The position numbers and the translations under genes are program-made. Shown here one piece after another: positions 41,859 to 54,493 of a stretch of DNA of 54,493 nucleotides (its first letter is position 1; each line of letters starts with the position of its first letter). The stretch covers positions 1 through 54,493 of the forward strand of contig CALWNN010000057.1 of assembly GCA_944382845.1 (NCBI GenBank), given 5' to 3'. The notes beneath the pieces were generated by a model. That model did not search any database. It was not told the origin of the DNA and saw only the letters and a list, made by a program, of their open reading frames with translations. The stretch comes from an uncultured Clostridia bacterium (GTDB lineage Bacteria; Bacillota; Clostridia; Oscillospirales; Ruminococcaceae).

Positions 41859-44489
41859 ATGGGTAAAAAGTATGTTTACCAGTTTACTGAAGGTAACGCA
41901 AACATGAGAGAACTTCTCGGCGGTAAGGGTGCAAACCTTGCTGAAATGACAGGTCTCGGACTTCCTGTTCCTCAGGGCTTCACCATTTCTACAGAAGCCT
42001 GCACTCAGTACTATGAGGACGGCCGTCAGATCAACGATGAGATCCAGGCTGAGATCATGAAGAACATCGAGATCATGGAAGAAAGAGTCGGAAAGAAGTT
42101 CGGAGATAAAGAAAATCCTCTTCTCGTATCTGTACGTTCAGGCGCAAGAGCTTCAATGCCGGGTATGATGGATACTATCCTTAACCTTGGTCTTAACGAA
42201 GAAGTTGTTGCGGTTATGTCTGAAAAGTCAGGAAACCCACGTTGGGCATGGGACTGCTACAGAAGATTTATCCAGATGTACTCAGACGTTGTTATGGAAG
42301 TAGGCAAGAAGTACTTTGAAGAGCTTATCGATGAAATGAAGGCTAAGAAGGGCGTAAAACAGGACGTTGAGCTTGACGCTGACGATCTGAAGGAGCTTGC
42401 TTACCAGTTCAAGGCTGAATACAAGGAAAAGATCGGAACAGACTTCCCGACAGATCCTGTTGAACAGCTTATGGGTGCAGTTAAGGCTGTATTCCGTTCA
42501 TGGGATAACCCGAGAGCTAACGTTTACCGTCGTGACAACGATATTCCTTATTCATGGGGTACTGCTGTTAACGTACAGATGATGGCTTTCGGAAACATGG
42601 GCGACGACTGCGGAACAGGTGTTGCATTTACCCGTGACCCTGCAACAGGTAACAAGGGACTCTTCGGAGAATTCCTTACAAACGCTCAGGGTGAGGACGT
42701 TGTTGCCGGCGTTCGTACACCTATGCACATTTCCGAAATGGAACAGAAATTCCCTGAGGCTTTCAAGCAGTTCAATGAAGTTTGCAACATTCTTGAAAAG
42801 CACTACAGAGATATGCAGGATATGGAATTTACCGTTGAGCACGGAAAGCTCTATATGCTCCAGACAAGAAACGGAAAGAGAACTGCTCAGGCTGCTCTTA
42901 AGATTGCTTGCGACCTCGTTGACGAAGGCATGAGAACTGAAGAAGAAGCTGTTGCAATGATCGATCCAAGAAACCTTGACACACTTCTCCACCCACAGTT
43001 TGACGCAAAGGCCCTCAAGGCTGCAACTCCTGCAGGCAAGGGACTCGGCGCTTCTCCGGGAGCTGCTTGCGGTAAGGTAGTATTTACTGCTGACGATGCA
43101 GTTGCATGGGCTGAAAGAGGAGAAAAGGTTGTTCTTGTTCGTCTTGAAACATCACCTGAAGACATCACAGGTATGAAGTCTGCTCAGGGTATCCTTACTG
43201 TTCGTGGCGGTATGACATCTCACGCTGCCGTTGTTGCTCGTGGAATGGGTACATGCTGCGTATCAGGCTGCGGCGATATCATTATGGACGAAGCTAACAA
43301 GAAGTTTGAGCTTGCTGGCAAGACATATCATGAAGGCGACTACATCTCAATCGACGGTTCAACCGGTAATATCTACGACGGAATCATTCCTACTGTTGAC
43401 GCTACAATTGCAGGCGAATTCGGAAGAATCATGTCTTGGGCTGACAAGTACAGAGTTCTTAAGGTTAGAACAAACGCTGATACTCCCGCTGACGCTAAGA
43501 AGGCAAGAGAACTCGGTGCAGAAGGTATCGGACTTTGCCGTACAGAGCATATGTTCTTTGAAGCTGACAGAATAGCTGCTTTCAGAGAAATGATTTGCTC
43601 AGATACAGTTGAAGAAAGAGAAGCAGCTCTTGCTAAGATTGAACCTATGCAGCAGAATGACTTTGAGGCTCTTTACGAAGCTCTCGAAGGAAACCCTGTT
43701 ACAATCAGATTCCTTGATCCTCCTCTTCATGAATTTGTTCCTACTGAAGAAGCTGACATTGAAGCCCTTGCTAAGGCTCAGGGCAAGAGTGTTGAGGCAA
43801 TCAAGGCTATCATAGCTTCACTTCACGAATTCAACCCAATGATGGGTCACCGTGGATGCCGTCTTGCTGTAACATATCCTGAAATCGCTAAGATGCAGAC
43901 AAAGGCTGTTATCAAGGCTGCTATCAACGTTAAGAAGAAGCACCCTGACTGGAATATCGTTCCTGAAATTATGATTCCTCTCGTAGGCGATGTTAAGGAA
44001 CTCAAGTATGTTAAGAATTTCGTAGTTGAAACAGCTGATGCAGTTATTGCTGAGGCAGGAATTGAACTCAAGTACGAAGTTGGTACAATGATCGAGATTC
44101 CAAGAGCTGCTCTTACAGCTGATGAAATTGCTAAGGAAGCTGAATTCTTCTGCTTCGGTACAAACGACCTTACTCAGATGACATACGGATTCTCAAGAGA
44201 TGACGCAGGTAAGTTCCTTAATGCTTACTATGATGCTAAGATCTTTGAAAACGATCCGTTTGCTAAGCTTGACCAGGTTGGTGTAGGAAAGCTTATGAAG
44301 ATGGCTGTTGAACTCGGAAAGAGCGTTCGTCCTGATATGCATATGGGAATTTGCGGAGAGCACGGCGGAGATCCGACATCTGTTGAATTCTGCCACAAGA
44401 TCGGACTTTCTTATGTATCTTGCTCACCATTCCGTGTTCCGATTGCAAGACTTGCCGCTGCACAGGCAGCTATTGCAGATAAGAGGTAA
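41859..44489 (+). CDS. ppdK: Pyruvate, phosphate dikinase
   Basis: 876 aa from ATG 41859 (GGAGG ten bases upstream). The nucleotide-binding domain opens KYVYQFTEGNANMRELLGGKGANLAEM, with VSVRSGARASMPGMMDTILNLG. The phosphohistidine domain has the catalytic His in GGMTSHAAVVARGMG (about residue 455) after SPGAACG. The PEP/pyruvate TIM barrel carries GLCRTEHMFFE, IRFLDPPLHEF, NPMMGHRGCRL and GTNDLTQMTYGFSRDD. The end is HMGICGEHGGDP...IARLAAAQAAIADKR. It interconverts pyruvate, ATP and Pi with PEP, AMP and PPi, replacing pyruvate kinase or driving gluconeogenesis in anaerobes. Codon use is strongly biased (GTT, AAG, GGA), as in very highly expressed genes. Its last eight codons recur at 47761. 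Confidence 0.97.
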   Translation: MGKKYVYQFTEGNANMRELLGGKGANLAEMTGLGLPVPQGFTISTEACTQYYEDGRQINDEIQAEIMKNIEIMEERVGKKFGDKENPLLVSVRSGARASMPGMMDTILNLGLNEEVVAVMSEKSGNPRWAWDCYRRFIQMYSDVVMEVGKKYFEELIDEMKAKKGVKQDVELDADDLKELAYQFKAEYKEKIGTDFPTDPVEQLMGAVKAVFRSWDNPRANVYRRDNDIPYSWGTAVNVQMMAFGNMGDDCGTGVAFTRDPATGNKGLFGEFLTNAQGEDVVAGVRTPMHISEMEQKFPEAFKQFNEVCNILEKHYRDMQDMEFTVEHGKLYMLQTRNGKRTAQAALKIACDLVDEGMRTEEEAVAMIDPRNLDTLLHPQFDAKALKAATPAGKGLGASPGAACGKVVFTADDAVAWAERGEKVVLVRLETSPEDITGMKSAQGILTVRGGMTSHAAVVARGMGTCCVSGCGDIIMDEANKKFELAGKTYHEGDYISIDGSTGNIYDGIIPTVDATIAGEFGRIMSWADKYRVLKVRTNADTPADAKKARELGAEGIGLCRTEHMFFEADRIAAFREMICSDTVEEREAALAKIEPMQQNDFEALYEALEGNPVTIRFLDPPLHEFVPTEEADIEALAKAQGKSVEAIKAIIASLHEFNPMMGHRGCRLAVTYPEIAKMQTKAVIKAAINVKKKHPDWNIVPEIMIPLVGDVKELKYVKNFVVETADAVIAEAGIELKYEVGTMIEIPRAALTADEIAKEAEFFCFGTNDLTQMTYGFSRDDAGKFLNAYYDAKIFENDPFAKLDQVGVGKLMKMAVELGKSVRPDMHMGICGEHGGDPTSVEFCHKIGLSYVSCSPFRVPIARLAAAQAAIADKR

Positions 44490-44685
44490 GTTCGACTCGT
44501 TAGAGTTAATGTGCAAATTCGATATAACATTGGAAGAAGCAAAGGCTTTCAGAGCTGAGAACGGACAAACGATAAAATCCAAAATATGGGAAGATATCAA
44601 TGTTGAAGTTCGTATATGCGGATAACTGATGTTAATAACGATCCCCCTGAATCATTTCGGTTCAGGGGGATTTTTTGTGTATGAA
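44462..44685 (+). repeat. Direct repeat copy 1: ppdK 3' end, 38-codon ORF and terminator
   Basis: This ~224-bp stretch is repeated 3299 bp downstream with about 95% identity. It covers the last codons of ppdK (QAAIADKR and stop), a 38-codon ORF (44509-44625, beginning MCKFDITLEEAKAF) and a terminator. The ORF has no convincing ribosome site and I do not recognise it. Weaker similarity extends to about 44731. This is the left edge of the island. Confidence 0.9.
44640..44677 (+). terminator. Terminator downstream of ppdK
   Basis: ATCCCCCTGAA/TTCAGGGGGAT perfect 11-bp stem, 9-nt loop, T6. Confidence 0.9.
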
Positions 44686-46796: not shown

Positions 46797-46817
46797 TATC
46801 TGAAAGGAATGAAGGAA

Positions 46818-47645
46818 ATGCCCGAATTACCAGAAGTTGAAACGATACGCCGAATAATCGGACCTCAGATCAGCGGCAGGAGTATTACTTCACTGAAGAT
46901 ACACAATCCGCAAATAATCGCATTTCCAGATGCGGATACGTTTTCGAGCTCTCTCGTTGGCTGTTCATTCACAGGAATGAGCCGCAGGGGCAAGTTTCTC
47001 ATATTTCACCTTGATAACGGAAGTAGGCTGGTGCTCCACCTGCGAATGACGGGACAACTGCTTGTTACACCTGCTGATCATCAGGAAGAAAAGCACACTC
47101 ATCTCAAAGCCGAACTGTCTGATGGAAAACAGATACGCTATATTGATGTCCGCCGTTTTGGACGCTTCTGGCTACTAAGCAATGACGAAGCCGATACCGT
47201 TACAGGAATGGACAAGCTCGGTATCGAGCCTGATAACGCGCTGCTGACTGCCGATTTCCTGATAGAAAAGCTGAACAAACGAAAGAAAGCAATAAAGGAA
47301 ATGCTTCACGACCAGACTATCATTGCAGGTATCGGCAACATTTACTCTGACGAGATACTTCACGCAGCGAAAATTCACCCCGAAAAGCCGTGTTGTTATC
47401 TCACTCGCTCAGAATGGAAACGTCTAGCAGAACAGATACCTAAGGTTATAGCATGGGCGACAGAAGCAAATGAGATAACTCCCGAGGACTATCTTGCAGG
47501 CAATGGCAAGGAATACCGTAACACGCCGTTTCTGAAAGCATACGGTCATAACGGTAAGCCTTGCGAGTTCTGCGGAACTCTGTTTGAAAAGTTAACTGTC
47601 GGCTGTCGGAGCAGCTGCTACTGCCCGAAATGTCAGAAGAAATAA
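46818..47645 (+). CDS. mutM: Formamidopyrimidine-DNA glycosylase (MutM/Nei type)
   Basis: 275 aa. The start is set at ATG 46818 so that Pro2 of MPELPEVET becomes the N-terminal catalytic nucleophile; AAAGGA lies nine bases upstream. Glu3 and Lys59 (SRRGKFL) complete the active site. Further: LHLRMTGQLLV, YIDVRRFGRFWLL, HDQTIIAGIGNIYSDEILHAAKIHP (helix-two-turn-helix) and a C-terminal zinc finger (CEFCGTLFEKLTVGCRSSCYCPKCQ). It excises oxidised purines and nicks the strand. It follows the DUF5131 gene by 21 bp inside the island. Whether the genome has another mutM cannot be seen here. Confidence 0.93.
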   Translation: MPELPEVETIRRIIGPQISGRSITSLKIHNPQIIAFPDADTFSSSLVGCSFTGMSRRGKFLIFHLDNGSRLVLHLRMTGQLLVTPADHQEEKHTHLKAELSDGKQIRYIDVRRFGRFWLLSNDEADTVTGMDKLGIEPDNALLTADFLIEKLNKRKKAIKEMLHDQTIIAGIGNIYSDEILHAAKIHPEKPCCYLTRSEWKRLAEQIPKVIAWATEANEITPEDYLAGNGKEYRNTPFLKAYGHNGKPCEFCGTLFEKLTVGCRSSCYCPKCQKK

Positions 47646-47760: not shown

Positions 47761-47986
47761 ACAGGCTGCTATCGCAGATAAGAGGTAAGCTCGACTCGTT
47801 AGAGTTAATGTGCACATTCGATATAACATTGGAAGAAGCAAAGGCTTTCAGAGCAGCGAACGGACAAACGATAAAATCCAAAATATGGGAAGATATCAAT
47901 GTTGAAGTTCGTATATGCGGATAACTGATGTTAACAACGATCCCCCCTGAATCAATTATGGTTCAGGGGGGATTTTTTGTGTCTGA
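47761..47986 (+). repeat. Direct repeat copy 2: displaced ppdK tail, 38-codon ORF and terminator
   Basis: Second copy of the 44462-44685 sequence. It keeps the last eight ppdK codons and stop (QAAIADKR with two synonymous changes), then a 38-codon ORF (47808-47924) differing at two residues, then the terminator. It is not attached to a gene. The rest of the mutM-cas9 gap (47646-47760, 47987-48089) shows nothing recognised. It marks the right edge of the island. Confidence 0.9.
47940..47977 (+). terminator. Terminator in repeat copy 2
   Basis: ATCCCCCCTGAA/TTCAGGGGGGAT stem with T6; one base pair longer than copy 1, with both arms changed together (six C and six G), i.e. compensatory. Confidence 0.9.
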
Positions 47987-48089
47987 ATTGAAGATGTTGC
48001 TAGTCTGGCAACAGTGTAGCTTTAATTAGAAATTTGCTTTTTGCTTTAACTATATATCTATAATAATCGTGATTGTGTTTTATTTTCTA

Positions 48090-48118
48090 TTGACATATTA
48101 TCGCAAACAGTGTATAAT
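48090..48118 (+). promoter_or_regulatory. Candidate cas9 operon promoter
   Basis: TTGACA (48090-48095), 17-bp spacer, TATAAT (48113-48118): perfect consensus. Start would be near 48125, giving a cas9 leader of about 234 nt that runs antisense through the complete tracrRNA gene. No comparably good plus-strand promoter was seen between the tracrRNA and cas9. Confidence 0.75.
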
Positions 48119-48178
48119 ATTTTTATATAGTATCACAATAACTTGATATCAGATGGCGTATGAAGATTAAAAGCAAAA

Positions 48179-48323
48179 CAAAAAATCCTTGCTATAAAGC
48201 AAGGATCAATGCACAACAAAGCAAGGATCAATGCACAACACTTGTGCGAACGGCTAAACCGAACGATTTGAAATAATTTTTATTTGAACTCGTAGTGTAA
48301 TTTTATAGGGTAGTAAATCCTAC
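48179..48323 (-). ncRNA. tracrRNA
   Basis: About 145 nt. The anti-repeat (48317-48292) is perfectly complementary to bases 9-34 of the 36-bp CRISPR repeat. After a bulge (GAGU opposite GA), a 6-bp lower stem pairs UCAAAU with the repeat's GUUUGA, as in SpCas9 guides. Then follow a short nexus-like CGG/CCG hairpin (48261-48251), a GCACAA/TTGTGC hairpin (48247-48233), and a 9-bp terminator stem (48206-48185) with T5. It guides RNase III processing of pre-crRNA and Cas9 loading. A 22-bp tandem duplication lies in the 3' part. Ends are inferred from promoter and terminator. Confidence 0.9.
48196..48239. repeat. 22-bp exact tandem duplication inside the tracrRNA gene
   Basis: Units 48196-48217 and 48218-48239 are identical. 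Each contains one strand of the 3' hairpin (TTGTGC on the RNA) and one arm of the terminator stem (ATCCTTGC). Confidence 0.95.
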
Positions 48324-48329
48324 ATTTAT

Positions 48330-48358
48330 ATATTATCATATTAAAGGAGGTTTGTCAA
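48330..48358 (-). promoter_or_regulatory. tracrRNA promoter
   Basis: Minus strand TTGACA (48358-48353), 17-bp spacer, TATAAT-like TAATAT (48335-48330). The -35 box directly abuts the cas9 GTG start (48359), and the cas9 ribosome site (AAAGGAGG, 48343-48350) lies in the spacer. Initiation would be near 48323. Confidence 0.8.
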
Positions 48359-51300
48359 GTGGCAAATGAAAAAAATTATTTAGGACTGGATATAGGTTCA
48401 AATTCAGTAGGCTGGGCAATTACGGATGAAGAATACAAGCTAAAAAAATTCAAAGGCAATCTTATGTGGGGAGTGCATCTTTTTGACGAAGCCCAGCAAT
48501 CTGCTGACAGAAGAGCATTCAGAACAGCTCGTCGCAGACTTGACAGACGTCAGCAAAGAATAAAGCTTCTACAGGATTTTTTTGCTGTTGAGATATTGAA
48601 AAAGGATGAGAAGTTCTTTTTAAGGCTTAAGGAAAGTGCTTTACTTCCGGAGGATTCCGAGAACAGAAAGAATAACATCTTCTTTGATGATGATAGCTAT
48701 GGCGATAAGGAGTATTTCCAGGAATATCCGACGATTCACCACCTTATAGTCGAACTAATTAACAATAAAGAACCTCATGATGTAAGATTGGTCTATTATG
48801 CCTGTGCATATTTGCTTGCTCATCGCGGACATTTTCTTTTTAATGTCGGAAAGGGTAATATTGAAGAGATAACAAATTTTAAACCAATATATGATAATTT
48901 TTATAGTGCGCTTCAGGATATAGATGAAAACCCGTTGTTTGATAAAGAAGCTAAAGCAAAAGATATTGAGGATATACTGAAACAGCATATTGCTATTACA
49001 AGCAAGGAAAGGGCGTTAAAACAAAGATTGTTTGGTGGAAAAATTCCTAAAACAAAAGAATCTGACGATAAAGATGATGGAGCCATAACTTTAGCTTATG
49101 ATAAGCTTATTAAACTGATAAGTGGCGGTACTGTCAAACTTTCTGAGCTTTTCTATAAAGAGGATTATAAAGAACTTGAAAAGAACTCAGTTTGCGTAAA
49201 AAATGCTGACTTTGATGATACTCTTGAAATACTGACAGGTCAGATAGATGAATTGCATTTGTCTCTGCTTACAAGAGTTAAGGCTATGTACGACTGGTCA
49301 CTGCTTGTAGATATCCTTCACGGTCACACAATGATATCTAAGTCTAAAGTAGAGATCTATGACAAGCATAAGATAGACCTTGAAAGAATCAAATACTTTG
49401 TCAGGACTTATCTTAGCAAAGCAGACTATAACGCTATATTCCGTGATGTATCAGATAAGGCGAACTATGTCAGCTACGTTTATAACGCTTCTTCTGACGG
49501 AAACAGAGATAAATATAAAAAATGCACGCAGGAGGATTTCTGCAAGTTATTAAAGCCTTATCTCGCTAAAATTGATCCGTCAGATGAGGACAAGGAATGC
49601 TATGAGAAATTAATGAAAAAATGTGAGGATAATGAGCTTTGCCCAAAACAGGTTACTACAGATAACCGTGTTATCCCTTATCAGCTCTATTATGCTGAGC
49701 TGAAAAAGATACTGGAAAACGCCTGCAAATACCTTGATTTTCTCAACGAAAAGGACGATGAATACGATAAAACAGTTTCCGAAAAAATTCTTAGTATTAT
49801 GGAGTTCAGGATACCTTACTATGCAGGTCCTCTTGTAAGCAGTGACAGGAGTAAAAATGCTTGGATGAAGAGGAAAGCAGAAGGAAAAATATATCCCTGG
49901 AACTTCAAAGATATGGTCGATGAAGAATCTTCTGAGAATGAGTTTATACGCCGTATGACCTGCAAATGTACTTATATCGCAGGTGCGGAGGTTCTGCCGA
50001 AGTATTCGCTGCTTTACAGCAAGTTCATGGTTCTTAATGAGATCAATAATATAAAAGTAAATGGAAATCCGATATCAGTTGATGTTAAACAAAGGCTTTA
50101 TAAGGATAAATTTGTTGACTGTAAAGCGAAAGTTACGAAGAAGCGTATCGCTGATTATTTTAAGTCAAATGGTATCTATAGTGGCGATATTGAGATTTCA
50201 GGCATTGACGATAATATAAAATCATCTTTGAAGTCCTATCACGATTTTAGACATCTTATGGAAAGCAATCAGCTTACGGAAAATGAAGTTGAGGATATAA
50301 TTGTACATATAACTGTAACTACTGATACAAATCGATTGAAAAAATGGCTAAAGGATAAATACGGAAAACTAACATCAGATGATATAAAGTACATATCTAA
50401 GCTGAAATACAACGATTACGGCAGGCTTTCAAGGCGTTTCCTTGAAGAAGTTCTTCCGATAGATACAAAAACGGGTGAAGCTGAAAGCGATAGAAATATC
50501 ATTACAGCTTTATGGGAAACAAATGAAAATATTATGCAGCTTTTAAGCTCAAAACACCGTTATTTCGAGGCTATCGAAAAGATAAATAGAGGCTATTATG
50601 ACCAGCACGCAGATGAAAATACTATCAGCAAGCGCATGGAAAATATGTATCTTTCACCTGCGGTAAGGCGTTCTGTTACACGAACTCTTGATATTGTCAA
50701 GGAGCTTAAAACGATACTGAAAAAAGCTCCCGATAAGATGTTTATAGAAATGGCAAGAGGTGAGGGCGAAACTCCAAAAGGTAAACGAACTGAGTCAAGA
50801 CGAGATCAAATAACGAAGTTTTTGGATGAATCCGAAGCCGATAATATCGATGAGCTCAGAAGTAATCTCGGAAAGGCAGATGACGGCAAACTCCGCAGTG
50901 AAAAGTATTTCTTGTATTTTATGCAACTTGGAAAATGTGCTTATACCGGAAAGTCAATAAGCTTCGATGAGCTTGAAGACAACAGCAAATGGAATATCGA
51001 CCATATCTGGCCTCAGGCGAAAATAAAAGATGACAGCCTTGATAATAAAGTTCTTGTTGATTCTAATGCTAACGGTGCAAAAAAAGATATTTATCCTATC
51101 GACGAAAATATTCGCAATAATATGAAGGGGTTCTGGTATAGCTTACGCGAAAAAAAGCTTATTAGCGATAAGAAGTATCAGCGACTTATACGAAGCACTC
51201 CGTTTACAGAGGACGAGTTAGCAGGCTTCATTGCACGTCAGCTCGTTGAAACAAGACAGTCCACAAAAGCTGTTGCCGAGCTTTTGAAAGAGCTTTGCCC

Positions 51301-52498
51301 TGAGAGTGAAATAGTCTATGTAAAGGCAGGTCTTGTATCTGAATTCAGGCAGGAAATGGATGTGCTGAAATGCCGAGAGATAAATGATCTCCATCATGCA
51401 AAGGATGCTTATCTGAATATTGTTATGGGGAATGTTTATAATACTAAATTCACTAATGATCCACGCAATTTTATACATAAGCATCTTGATAATTATTCGA
51501 TTAAACTGACTACACTTCTATCACAGAAAATAGAACGCAATGGTGAAGTTGCATGGGATAATGTGCGTTCGTTTGCTACTGTCAGAGCTATGATGGCTAA
51601 GAATAGTATCAGATATGTGAGATATACATATAAGCGTAAGGGCGGACTGTTCAACCAGATGCCGGAACGAAAGAAAGATGGACTTGTTCCGCGTAAAAAA
51701 GGACTTGATACATCAAAATATGGCGGATATAATAATAAAACAGCTTCTTATTTCTCGTTAGTTAAGGTGAAAAATGATATTGTTTTTATTCCCGTTGATT
51801 TAATTGATTCTATTAAGTTTTTGAAGGATATAAAAAAATCAAAAGAAATTGCTTTAACAGCGCTAAAAGAGTTTTATTCGCCCCAAAAGTTGTCGGGCAT
51901 TACTGAAAATGATATCGTTTTTCCATTAAAACGAACCATTATAAAAATCAATACTATGATTGAGATTGATGGATTTAGAATTAATATATGCAGCAAGGAC
52001 AGCAAGGGAAAATATATATCTGTTTCATCCGCTGTTCCTTTAATACTTGATAGTGATAAAAAAATATATATCAAAAAAATAGAATCCTTCAAGAAAAAAT
52101 ATGACAACGATCGGAACTATAAAGTTAATAAATACAGTGGTATATCTGAAACTGAAAACATAGAATTATATGATTATCTTGCTGAAAAATGTTTAAGTGA
52201 ACCGTTTAATAAATGGCAGAAATTTAAAGAAGCTGGAAAAATATTAGTAAATGGTAAGGCGCTTTTTATTAATCAGGATATAACAATTCAGACTTTATCG
52301 TTACTGAAAATATTAGCGATTCTAAAAACAGGGCGTTCCGGTAACTGTGATCTGAGCTTTGCAGGAGGAGTTGCTAATTATAATACTGTTAGATTTAATT
52401 CAACGCTTGATTCAAAAAAGAATAAACATGTTTATTTAATCGATCAATCACCAACAGGACTTTTCGAGAAAAAGTCTGTAAATCTCCTTGAGCTATGA
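48359..52498 (+). CDS. cas9: Type II-A CRISPR-associated endonuclease Cas9
   Basis: 1379 aa, GTG start with AAAGGAGG eight bases upstream. RuvC-I: YLGLDIGSNSVGWAI (Asp11). Arg-rich bridge helix about 52-77 (RRAFRTARRRLDRRQQR). Alpha-helical REC lobe about 80-770. RuvC-II: MFIEMARGEG (Glu797). HNH: NIDHIWPQ with Asp881 and His882, and Asn905 in SNANGAKKD. RuvC-III: HHAKDAYLN (His1012, His1013, Asp1016). The PAM-interacting C-terminus ends IDQSPTGLFEKKSVNLL, as in SpCas9-like proteins. All nuclease residues are intact, so it should cut both strands of crRNA-matched DNA. It is slightly longer than the 1368-aa S. pyogenes protein. Its stop overlaps the cas1 start. Confidence 0.98.
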   Translation: MANEKNYLGLDIGSNSVGWAITDEEYKLKKFKGNLMWGVHLFDEAQQSADRRAFRTARRRLDRRQQRIKLLQDFFAVEILKKDEKFFLRLKESALLPEDSENRKNNIFFDDDSYGDKEYFQEYPTIHHLIVELINNKEPHDVRLVYYACAYLLAHRGHFLFNVGKGNIEEITNFKPIYDNFYSALQDIDENPLFDKEAKAKDIEDILKQHIAITSKERALKQRLFGGKIPKTKESDDKDDGAITLAYDKLIKLISGGTVKLSELFYKEDYKELEKNSVCVKNADFDDTLEILTGQIDELHLSLLTRVKAMYDWSLLVDILHGHTMISKSKVEIYDKHKIDLERIKYFVRTYLSKADYNAIFRDVSDKANYVSYVYNASSDGNRDKYKKCTQEDFCKLLKPYLAKIDPSDEDKECYEKLMKKCEDNELCPKQVTTDNRVIPYQLYYAELKKILENACKYLDFLNEKDDEYDKTVSEKILSIMEFRIPYYAGPLVSSDRSKNAWMKRKAEGKIYPWNFKDMVDEESSENEFIRRMTCKCTYIAGAEVLPKYSLLYSKFMVLNEINNIKVNGNPISVDVKQRLYKDKFVDCKAKVTKKRIADYFKSNGIYSGDIEISGIDDNIKSSLKSYHDFRHLMESNQLTENEVEDIIVHITVTTDTNRLKKWLKDKYGKLTSDDIKYISKLKYNDYGRLSRRFLEEVLPIDTKTGEAESDRNIITALWETNENIMQLLSSKHRYFEAIEKINRGYYDQHADENTISKRMENMYLSPAVRRSVTRTLDIVKELKTILKKAPDKMFIEMARGEGETPKGKRTESRRDQITKFLDESEADNIDELRSNLGKADDGKLRSEKYFLYFMQLGKCAYTGKSISFDELEDNSKWNIDHIWPQAKIKDDSLDNKVLVDSNANGAKKDIYPIDENIRNNMKGFWYSLREKKLISDKKYQRLIRSTPFTEDELAGFIARQLVETRQSTKAVAELLKELCPESEIVYVKAGLVSEFRQEMDVLKCREINDLHHAKDAYLNIVMGNVYNTKFTNDPRNFIHKHLDNYSIKLTTLLSQKIERNGEVAWDNVRSFATVRAMMAKNSIRYVRYTYKRKGGLFNQMPERKKDGLVPRKKGLDTSKYGGYNNKTASYFSLVKVKNDIVFIPVDLIDSIKFLKDIKKSKEIALTALKEFYSPQKLSGITENDIVFPLKRTIIKINTMIEIDGFRINICSKDSKGKYISVSSAVPLILDSDKKIYIKKIESFKKKYDNDRNYKVNKYSGISETENIELYDYLAEKCLSEPFNKWQKFKEAGKILVNGKALFINQDITIQTLSLLKILAILKTGRSGNCDLSFAGGVANYNTVRFNSTLDSKKNKHVYLIDQSPTGLFEKKSVNLLEL

Positions 52499-53379
52499 GC
52501 TGGAGAACAGTAGTAATATCAAAAAGAGCTAAGCTTGATATGAAAACAGGATATCTCGTCGTAAGAAGCGAGGAAGAAACTCACAGGATAAATCTCGACG
52601 AGATATCCGTACTCATTATCGAGAATACTGCTGTATCTATTACTGGTTGCCTTATTTCGGCTCTTATGGATAAGAAGATCAAGGTCATATTTTGCGATGA
52701 AAAGCGAGACCCGACCTGCGAGTTGGTCGCACTATATGGAAGTCACGATACATCTGCAAAGCTCAGAAAACAGATAAAGTGGGATGATGATGTTAAGGCG
52801 TATATATGGTCGGAGATAATTGCTGAGAAGATACGCAAGCAGACAGAGTTTCTGGAAGAACTTGGAAAAAGTGAAGAAGCCTTTATGCTGAAAAAGTATA
52901 TCGAAGAGCTTGAACTTGGAGATGTTACTAACCGCGAAGGTCATGCTGCGAAGGTATATTTCAACGCTTTATTTGGCAAGGAATTTACTCGTAGTCAGGA
53001 AAGTGTTACAAACGCAGCCCTTAACTATGGTTACAGCATTATCCTCTCTTATTTTAACAGAGAGATAACGGCACACGGTTATGTTACTCAGCTGGGGCTG
53101 TTCCACAGCAATATGTTCAATCACTTCAATTTTTCCTGTGATCTTATGGAGCCGTTCAGAGTTATCGTTGACAGGTGCGTGGTAGAAAACTGCTTTACAA
53201 AATTTGATAAGGACGAAAAGCATATCCTTGTTGATCTGCTGAATTCAACTGTATATATAAACGGTATGGAGCAGTATCTCGGCAATGCAATAAAGCTTTA
53301 TTGCAGGAGTGTATTTGATGCACTAAATGATAATGATGCCTCCCAGATAACCTTCTATTCACTTAAAAGGAAGGGATAA
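52495..53379 (+). CDS. cas1: CRISPR adaptation endonuclease Cas1
   Basis: 294 aa, ATGA overlap with cas9. Type II Cas1: N-terminal beta domain ([42 protein letters not shown]). The C-terminal helical domain has the metal ligands Glu148 ([12 protein letters not shown]), His204 ([14 protein letters not shown]) and Glu219 within [13 protein letters not shown]. With Cas2 it forms the integrase that inserts new spacers at the leader end of the array. In type II-A it also needs Cas9, tracrRNA and Csn2, all present here. Confidence 0.97.
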
Positions 53380-53381
53380 AA

Positions 53382-53702
53382 GTGAGCTACAGATTTATGA
53401 GAGTACTTGTGTTTTTTGATCTTCCTGTAATAACTGCAGAAAACAGGCGTGATTATAACAGGTTCCGACGCTTTCTTATAAAAAATGGATTTATCATGCT
53501 TCAGGAGTCGGTTTATTGCAGAATGGTGCTTAACCAAACTGTTGCGTCCACTGTTTTAAATGTGATTAAGAGTAATAAACCGCCGCATGGACTTGTTCAG
53601 GTGCTTAATGTTACAGAGAAACAATTTGAGAAGATGGAATTCATTACAGGAAGTTTTAACAGTGACGTTATAGATAATGACGAAAGGCTCGTGATATTAT
53701 GA
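53382..53702 (+). CDS. cas2: CRISPR adaptation protein Cas2
   Basis: 106 aa, GTG start two bases after the cas1 stop, with AAGGAAGGG upstream. Ferredoxin-like fold: [40 protein letters not shown], with the conserved Asp13 at the end of strand 1. Two Cas1 dimers are bridged by a Cas2 dimer in the adaptation complex. The stop overlaps the csn2 start. Confidence 0.97.
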
Positions 53703-54367
53703 TGATAGCATATCCGGCGGGAGATATATGCTGCGAACTTAAAGAGAATAAGATCCTTACATTGGTAATTGAAAATCAGCATGTGTTTTACAGTATAATT
53801 TCAGATATTCAAACTCAACTGGACGGAAACAGCGGTGAATTTGTACTTTCCGAGAATTATACACCGCTGGATATGCGTAAGAATACAGAGCTGATCTCGC
53901 AACTCATCCCGTTTACAGTTAATCAGAAAGATCTTGTAACCAAGCTTTACGGTTACATAAAAAAGAAAGCAGTCAACGAAAATATGTATCAGCCTACTCA
54001 GGAATTGATTGCAAAAATTTCCGATTATTTATATCAACTTACTGAAGATGAAGAAAACGAACTCATTGTAACAGTGCCTGAGGATATTTCTGGAATTCTT
54101 AAGGCATTTGATCTCAGATTTGATGATAATGATATGAGCCTTTCAGAAAAGCTTCTTGAATACATGATAAGTTCAAATGAGTTCAAGGCTAAAAAGTTGT
54201 TTATTGTTATTAATCTAAGAAGTTATCTGACAGATAATCAGGCAGAACAGCTTTTTAAAAGCGTTCTCTTGAAGAAGTTGCAGTTAATATGCATTGAAAG
54301 TGCTGAGCACAAGAGGCTTGGCAATGAAGAAGTTATAATAATCGATAACGATATGTGCGTTATTTGA
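53699..54367 (+). CDS. csn2: CRISPR adaptation protein Csn2 (type II-A marker)
   Basis: 222 aa, ATGATG start overlapping the cas2 stop. The sequence matches canonical-length Csn2 (about 220 aa): [74 protein letters not shown], and the C-terminal [35 protein letters not shown] strand-helix region ending [11 protein letters not shown]. It forms a calcium-stabilised tetramer ring that binds double-stranded DNA ends and is needed for spacer acquisition. It classifies the locus as II-A and is the last cas gene before the array. Confidence 0.92.
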
Positions 54368-54371
54368 TTTG

Positions 54372-54400
54372 TTGACTTTTAACAGTTTTTGTACTATAAT
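54372..54400 (+). promoter_or_regulatory. CRISPR leader promoter
   Basis: TTGACT (54372-54377), 17-bp spacer, TATAAT (54395-54400), 57 bp before the first repeat. It would transcribe pre-crRNA in the same direction as the cas genes. Confidence 0.8.
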
Positions 54401-54450
54401 ATAGGTGATACCTTATAAAAATATGCTGATGAGTAGTGTCATTATCTCGA

Positions 54451-54457: not shown

Positions 54458-54493
54458 GTTTGAGAGTAGTGTAATTTTATAGGGTAGTAAAAC
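54458..54493 (+). CRISPR. First direct repeat of a type II-A array, cut by the window end
   Basis: A 36-bp repeat begins GTTTGAGAG and ends GTAGTAAAAC, with its last base at the final base of the window. It pairs with the tracrRNA anti-repeat over 26 continuous bases plus the lower stem. Only one repeat is visible, so spacers and array length cannot be described. Confidence 0.9.

Follow-up and report, generated by a model that had tools for sequence, protein, structure and literature searches.

A candidate cas9 promoter behind a convergent, nested tracrRNA gene in a type II-A CRISPR locus of Ruminococcaceae and in related Clostridia loci

In Streptococcus pyogenes, the trans-activating CRISPR (clustered regularly interspaced short palindromic repeats) RNA (tracrRNA) is encoded antisense upstream of cas9, and the cas promoter, Pcas, lies between tracrRNA and cas9. 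What is known of Cas9 expression control comes largely from streptococci, in which a long tracrRNA represses a cas promoter next to cas9. Repression of the S. pyogenes cas promoter by this long form, tracr-L, has been reported together with a tracrRNA-based feedback on Cas9 expression (PMC11417352). Two promoters are reported for the cas operon of Streptococcus agalactiae, the autorepressed P1cas and the distal P2cas, which lies at the tracrRNA 3' end; P2cas, which is repressed by CovR, is alone necessary and sufficient in strains that have lost P1cas (PMC12216829). In the same species, an antisense RNA of about 100 nucleotides (nt) overlapping the 3' end of tracrRNA has been mapped (PMC4448216). 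A cas promoter behind tracrRNA is already known to work, in S. agalactiae (PMC12216829). Here we describe the region upstream of cas9 in a 54,493-nt stretch of DNA (the window), which is one entire contig (CALWNN010000057.1) of the genome of an uncultured Clostridia bacterium of the Ruminococcaceae, and in which the cas9-cas1-cas2-csn2 operon is likely to be transcribed from a distal sigma-A-type promoter through a nested convergent tracrRNA gene (Table 1).

A sequence-only reading of this region had placed a perfect TTGACA-17-TATAAT promoter directed toward cas9 at 48090-48118 and a tracrRNA promoter pointing back at 48358-48330. Both lie at these positions; the former agrees with the consensus at all 12 hexamer bases, and the latter is found on the - strand as TTGACA-17-TAATAT. 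TTGACA-N16..18-TATAAT occurs 119 times (64+55) in the 2.14 Mb of the window's own genome and the reversed-pattern control 4 times (2+2), so perfect sigma-A-type matches in this genome are likely to be real promoters in nearly all cases. In comparison with a locus whose Cas9 is 95% identical (L033), 13 substitutions are found across the aligned region 47930-48400, and 5 of the 17 spacer bases of the 48090-48118 promoter are substituted while none of the 12 hexamer bases is. Between tracrRNA and cas9, the top + strand site agrees at only 8/12 bases, and transcription from it would start inside the Shine-Dalgarno sequence; a proximal promoter like P1cas was accordingly not found in the window. 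Because a strong terminator at 47939-47974 cuts off the upstream gene, the site at 48090-48118 is the sole good sigma-A-type candidate promoter found for cas9.

This candidate resembles P2cas (formerly the srn036 promoter), which is likewise described as lying at the 3' end of tracrRNA and pointing through tracrRNA to cas9 (PMC12216829; PMC4448216). P2cas is reported as a second promoter, and CovR is described as binding some 300 bp ahead of cas9, whereas the window's promoter is the only candidate found. Many S. agalactiae strains are reported to have P1cas in the tracrRNA-cas9 intergenic region, whereas the tracrRNA promoter of the window overlaps the cas9 ribosome-binding region, with its -35 box (48353-48358) between the Shine-Dalgarno sequence and the start codon. 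In the explanation that we favour and consider likely, transcription of the operon would start at the sigma-A-type promoter behind the tracrRNA gene, and RNA polymerase would read the tracrRNA gene backwards, cross the tracrRNA promoter and then reach cas9. Since the tracrRNA promoter seems to be built into the cas9 ribosome-binding region, there would be no room for a cas9 promoter between them. The most likely consequences would be a mild mutual damping by convergent transcription and trimming by RNase III of the duplex between the cas9 leader and tracrRNA, the antisense leader itself being probably a by-product. It is quite unlikely that the promoter at 48090-48118 mainly makes a short antisense RNA to damp tracrRNA, with cas9 mostly expressed from elsewhere. 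A role of this kind was first suggested for the antisense RNA of S. agalactiae (PMC4448216), but the corresponding promoter was later reported to drive cas (PMC12216829); in the window, moreover, no + strand terminator-like site was found between 48118 and 48359, no better promoter was found nearer cas9, and read-through from upstream would be blocked by the terminator at 47939-47974.

Relatives were collected by a related-locus search (9 loci) and by whole-genome searches for cas9 at the genus, family, order and class levels (4/5, 25/397, 22/394 and 20/391 genomes, respectively); these genome samples overlap, and every one includes the window's own genome. Among the 64 loci that entered the pipeline, 55 (window included) have an anti-repeat with a score of at least 13, the cut-off, upstream of cas9 and were used for gaps and tracrRNA promoters. 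The promoter zones were counted in the 53 loci (the window and 52 relatives) that also have a terminator, L126 and L143 being outside these counts for lack of a terminator call. No anti-repeat scoring at least 13 was found in six loci (L060, L098, L113, L138, L144 and L148), of which L060 has a tracrRNA-like region by eye, and L111 (a duplicate of L110), L114 (only an array of another kind) and L033 (for its 95% identical Cas9) were left out. L044 (same contig as L036), L051 and L055 (61 and 0 nt upstream) and L078 stayed outside the pipeline. L078 has a nested tracrRNA by eye, with an anti-repeat ending 39 nt before cas9, and is uncounted with its score of 10.5. In each zone, the best + strand promoter was taken, and expected counts were obtained from dinucleotide shuffles.

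When both strands were searched and the better anti-repeat match was taken, tracrRNA was antisense to cas9 in 55/55 loci. The anti-repeat lies within 80 nt of the cas9 start in 52 of these loci and within 50 nt in 38, and the remaining L059, L107 and L146 have a wide spacing like that of S. pyogenes. In the zone up to 150 nt behind the tracrRNA terminator, + strand sites agreeing at 9/12 bases or more were found in 40 of the 53 loci (17.5 expected), at 10/12 or more in 29 (4.2 expected), at 11/12 or more in 22 (0.4 expected) and at 12/12 in 5 (0.0 expected). The tracrRNA body has a + strand promoter of at least 10/12 in none of the 53 loci, the interval between tracrRNA and cas9 has one in 2 (L107 and L125), and neither has one of at least 11/12 in any locus; the next two 150-nt blocks upstream have sites of at least 10/12 in 4/52 and 3/51 loci (2.0 and 1.3 expected). 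In the 29 loci with a distal site of at least 10/12, the predicted starts are situated 1-81 nt before the terminator stem (within 70 nt in 28), and the predicted leader is 149-301 nt long, with a median of 181 nt. The sequence-only reading had proposed a search of related Ruminococcus cas9 loci for the same promoter order, and this order is indeed shared by many relatives, among them the cultured R. flavefaciens ATCC 19208 (L032). Judged from predicted promoters, many of the sampled relatives have a distal cas9 promoter behind a convergent tracrRNA and nearly all have a tight antisense tracrRNA, and the compact convergent arrangement appears as the usual plan of these Clostridia cas9 loci.

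The position of the tracrRNA promoter points in the same direction. A tracrRNA promoter of at least 9/12 is present in 53/55 loci, with an exact TTGACA in 45/55. In 38/55 loci, the best site has its whole -35 box no more than 20 nt from the cas9 start, these loci including L141 with a poor 8/12 site and L125 and L140 with boxes at -20 to -15; in 35/55 the box is in the last 8 nt before the cas9 start codon or touches its first base. Even in the wide loci L059 and L107, the box stays with tracrRNA, 238-243 and 115-120 nt from cas9, which indicates that it is part of the tracrRNA promoter and would overlap the cas9 ribosome-binding region as a result of packing. Among the wide loci, which offer a natural comparison, L107 alone shows a 10/12 promoter in the gap, in addition to a distal one of 10/12. 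On a Cas9 tree (56 rows, FastTree, drawn with a midpoint root), the tight or wide state requires 2 changes, L059 and L107 forming one pair and L146 being paired with L115. A similar GC-rich stem-loop, AAGGCGGCGGGTTCC..., is seen upstream of cas9 in the otherwise different loci L059 and L045/L102, beside tracrRNA or between tracrRNA and cas9; it is possibly the end of an insertion element that created the wide layout of L059.

Several observations count against transcription from a distal promoter as a general plan. No distal site of at least 10/12 is present in 24/53 loci and none of at least 9/12 in 13/53; in some of them, e.g. L035, L102 (= L045) and L105 (= L048), other sequence lies close to tracrRNA by eye, and where such sequence adjoins tracrRNA, cas9 may be read from elsewhere. 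The block 300-450 nt upstream also has 11/12 sites in 2/51 loci (0.1 expected), relatedness among the loci (e.g. L038/L040 and L043/L101) limits their independence, promoter activity is deduced from sequence, and the mutual-damping step is drawn by analogy only. The 24 loci without a distal site would also suit a chance promoter match, with cas9 expressed by upstream read-through or from an unrecognised promoter type. This is very unlikely, given the 119 genome-wide matches against 4 in the reversed control, the 22 loci with distal sites of at least 11/12 against 0.4 expected, and the divergence from L033, in which the spacer has changed and the hexamers have not.

Autoregulation by tracr-L, in which, as in S. 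pyogenes, Cas9 would be directed to the cas promoter by a long tracrRNA, is the least likely of the alternatives here. It is known in streptococci (PMC11417352), and among the 29 loci compared, 3 have a match of 11-12 nt between a 5'-extended tracrRNA and the promoter zone: those of L123 (12 nt) and L117 (11 nt) are longer than in any of their 40 shuffles, unlike that of L110 (11 nt). Against it, no - strand sigma-A-type site of at least 9/12 is present in the window at 48366-49214, and the longest match in the window is 8 nt, the same as the shuffle mean of 8.0, so that a guide match of about 11 nt is absent; the mean match over the 29 loci is 8.2 nt, versus 7.7 nt in shuffled sequences. The sequence-only reading had regarded the layout as different from the known autoregulation. 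This holds insofar as the S. pyogenes Pcas is reported to be repressed by tracr-L (PMC11417352) whereas the window is without tracr-L signals, but P2cas is a precedent for the promoter order itself (PMC12216829).

It had also been proposed that a cas9 mRNA starting near 48125 would be complementary to the whole tracrRNA, and the predicted leader of 234 nt does cover tracrRNA from 48323 to about 48178. The complementarity is exact for the trivial reason that the two transcripts use opposite strands. The anti-repeat agrees with the array repeat at 26/26 nt (48292-48317), and the leader would therefore carry a near-copy of the repeat. This could make the leader a dedicated sensor, in which free tracrRNA, or Cas9-tracrRNA without CRISPR RNA (crRNA), pairs with the repeat copy, RNase III cuts and the cas9 mRNA falls, and the Cas9 level follows that of its RNA partners with no need for a long-form tracrRNA. 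For the anti-repeat region, the computed pairing energies are -66.6 kcal/mol with the leader and a weaker -42.4 kcal/mol with the crRNA repeat, the tight antisense layout is kept in 52/55 loci, and a tracrRNA-based feedback on Cas9 is reported in S. pyogenes (PMC11417352), all of which would agree with a sensor. We regard it nevertheless as rather unlikely, because perfect pairing is automatic for opposite strands and compactness also accounts for the layout. In addition, about 20 nt separate the end of the predicted duplex from the downstream Shine-Dalgarno sequence, which is thus left free, and RNase III trimming need not stop cas9 translation.

The hairpins also allow the two strands to be told apart, as a G-U pair in tracrRNA corresponds to an A-C mismatch in the leader. 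In each hairpin, G-U and A-C were treated alike in the search, with at most one wobble per stem. Over the 53 loci, 37 G-U were found against 15 A-C in the tracrRNA orientation (binomial p = 0.003, for related loci that are not independent), which favours the tracrRNA strand. The terminator-finding rule allowed G-T on the + strand, which is a bias toward A-C, and so the test is conservative, if anything. Consensus folding of the 53 tracrRNA 3' parts recovered a single 4-pair hairpin, having 9 G-U and 3 A-C. On the other side, folding energies show no preference for either strand (the tracrRNA strand is stabler in 24/53 loci, with a mean difference of 0.06 kcal/mol), which leaves room for a leader structure of use to a sensor. 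On balance, this modest evidence suggests that the tracrRNA strand, not the leader, is the main target of selection, and the antisense leader probably comes along with the layout and is no dedicated regulator.

A transcript that crosses an opposing gene is described in a review as subject to polymerase collision and RNase III processing (PMC7154746). Read-through of an oppositely oriented gene, as assumed for the window, is reported for the excludon or noncontiguous operon menE-menC-MW1733-ytkD-MW1731 of Staphylococcus aureus (PMC7154746). The overlapping opposite transcripts that characterize an excludon are predicted in the window from promoters and terminators alone, and in contrast to the S. 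aureus case, the embedded gene is that of a non-coding RNA, a partner of the encoded protein. Annealing of the two RNAs, RNase III cutting and transcriptional interference would all plausibly fit this anatomy. As a more far-reaching and tentative idea, which we hold to be doubtful, the nested layout across such Clostridia loci might be a conserved self-balancing switch, in which polymerase traffic and RNase III set the ratio of Cas9 to tracrRNA; such autoregulation would differ from the tracr-L route and would probably have arisen earlier in this lineage. Should the nested order prove general in Clostridia, the model from streptococci would not apply to them, and transcription of cas9 and that of tracrRNA could not be separated. 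In practice, excision of the tracrRNA gene, or cloning of cas9 with only a short piece of its upstream DNA, would eliminate or impair the native promoter or the ribosome-binding region. In this gut bacterium and many of the sampled relatives, the first part of the Cas9 message appears to mirror its helper tracrRNA, and mutual restraint would be possible. Among the titles and abstract openings listed by the literature searches, none deals with the promoter order of cas9 loci in Ruminococcus or other Clostridia, and none describes the nested order as a Clostridia rule, which is no proof of absence.

Table 1. Positions of predicted and annotated features in the window
Feature	Position	Strand	Details
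Intrinsic terminator between the upstream gene (46809-47645) and the cas9 promoter	47939..47974	+	16-pair stem, 4-nt loop, T-run
Candidate cas9 operon promoter	48090..48118	+	TTGACA-17-TATAAT, 12/12; predicted +1 near 48125
Predicted cas9 mRNA leader	48125..48358	+	234 nt, antisense to the whole tracrRNA; placed from the promoter position
Predicted tracrRNA	48323 to about 48178	-	~146 nt; promoter, anti-repeat, hairpins, terminator
tracrRNA intrinsic terminator	48207..48184	-	10-pair stem and T-run
22-nt tandem duplication in the tracrRNA 3' part	48196..48239	-	One copy absent in the closest relative, L033
tracrRNA anti-repeat	48317..48282	-	+ strand reads as a near-copy of the CRISPR repeat, within the cas9 leader
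tracrRNA promoter	48358..48330	-	TTGACA-17-TAATAT, 10/12, extended TG; -35 box at 48353-48358
cas9 Shine-Dalgarno sequence	48344..48350	+	AAGGAGG, within the tracrRNA promoter spacer; read from sequence
cas9	48359..52498	+	GTG start, 1379 aa; TIGR01865, 887.7 bits (cut-off 100)
cas1	52495..53379	+	TIGR03639, type II Cas1, 313.7 bits (cut-off 120)
cas2	53382..53702	+	TIGR01573, 73.6 bits (cut-off 24.5)
csn2	53699..54367	+	TIGR01866, 139.1 bits (cut-off 35)
Promoter-like site of the CRISPR array leader	54372..54400	+	TTGACT-17-TATAAT, 11/12
First CRISPR repeat	54458..54493	+	36 nt; identical to the 36-nt repeat built from the arrays of L036, L039, L100, L102 and L103

The window has the same cas9-cas1-cas2-csn2 operon as the type II-A locus of S. 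pyogenes; all four genes exceed their NCBIfam cut-offs, are overlapping or adjacent and lie on the + strand, and a tracrRNA with an anti-repeat to the array repeat, as belongs to type II-A, is present. The tandem duplication at 48196-48239 makes the tracrRNA of the window longer, and Rfam gave no relevant match and one sub-threshold match. The last base of the window is the last base of the first CRISPR repeat (54458-54493), and with this assembly break directly after the repeat, the spacers are outside the window. A pairing of the CRISPR leader with the 5' end of the cas9 mRNA (48117-48136 with 54405-54424, an inverted repeat of 18/20 nt) was considered and rejected as chance or strain-specific, its z being 7.2 in the window, -1.1 in L033 and 0.08 on average over 37 loci.

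The comparison with Bacilli is thin, comprising five loci of a plasmid collection (L149-L153). In the Listeria locus L149, a 23-nt part of the locus's own repeat gives an anti-repeat with a score of 15 whose end lies 73 nt upstream of cas9; judging from this locus, the nested order may reach into Bacilli. A TATAAT is seen by eye behind its tracrRNA terminator (in the region about 74-280 nt before cas9). L152 has no array and scores 13.5 on either strand with different probes, so that its tracrRNA was left unplaced, and the anti-repeat scores of L150, L151 and L153 are below 13. In-frame stops are found in cas9 of some sampled relatives, one in Ruminococcus albus KH2T6 (L036/L044) and two in G003 (L043), and the tracrRNA regions of these loci look intact by eye despite the stops. 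In the window, a 186-nt direct repeat with 96% identity is found at 44462-44647 and 47761-47946, at or after the ends of two unrelated genes, and is possibly a small mobile or duplicated element.
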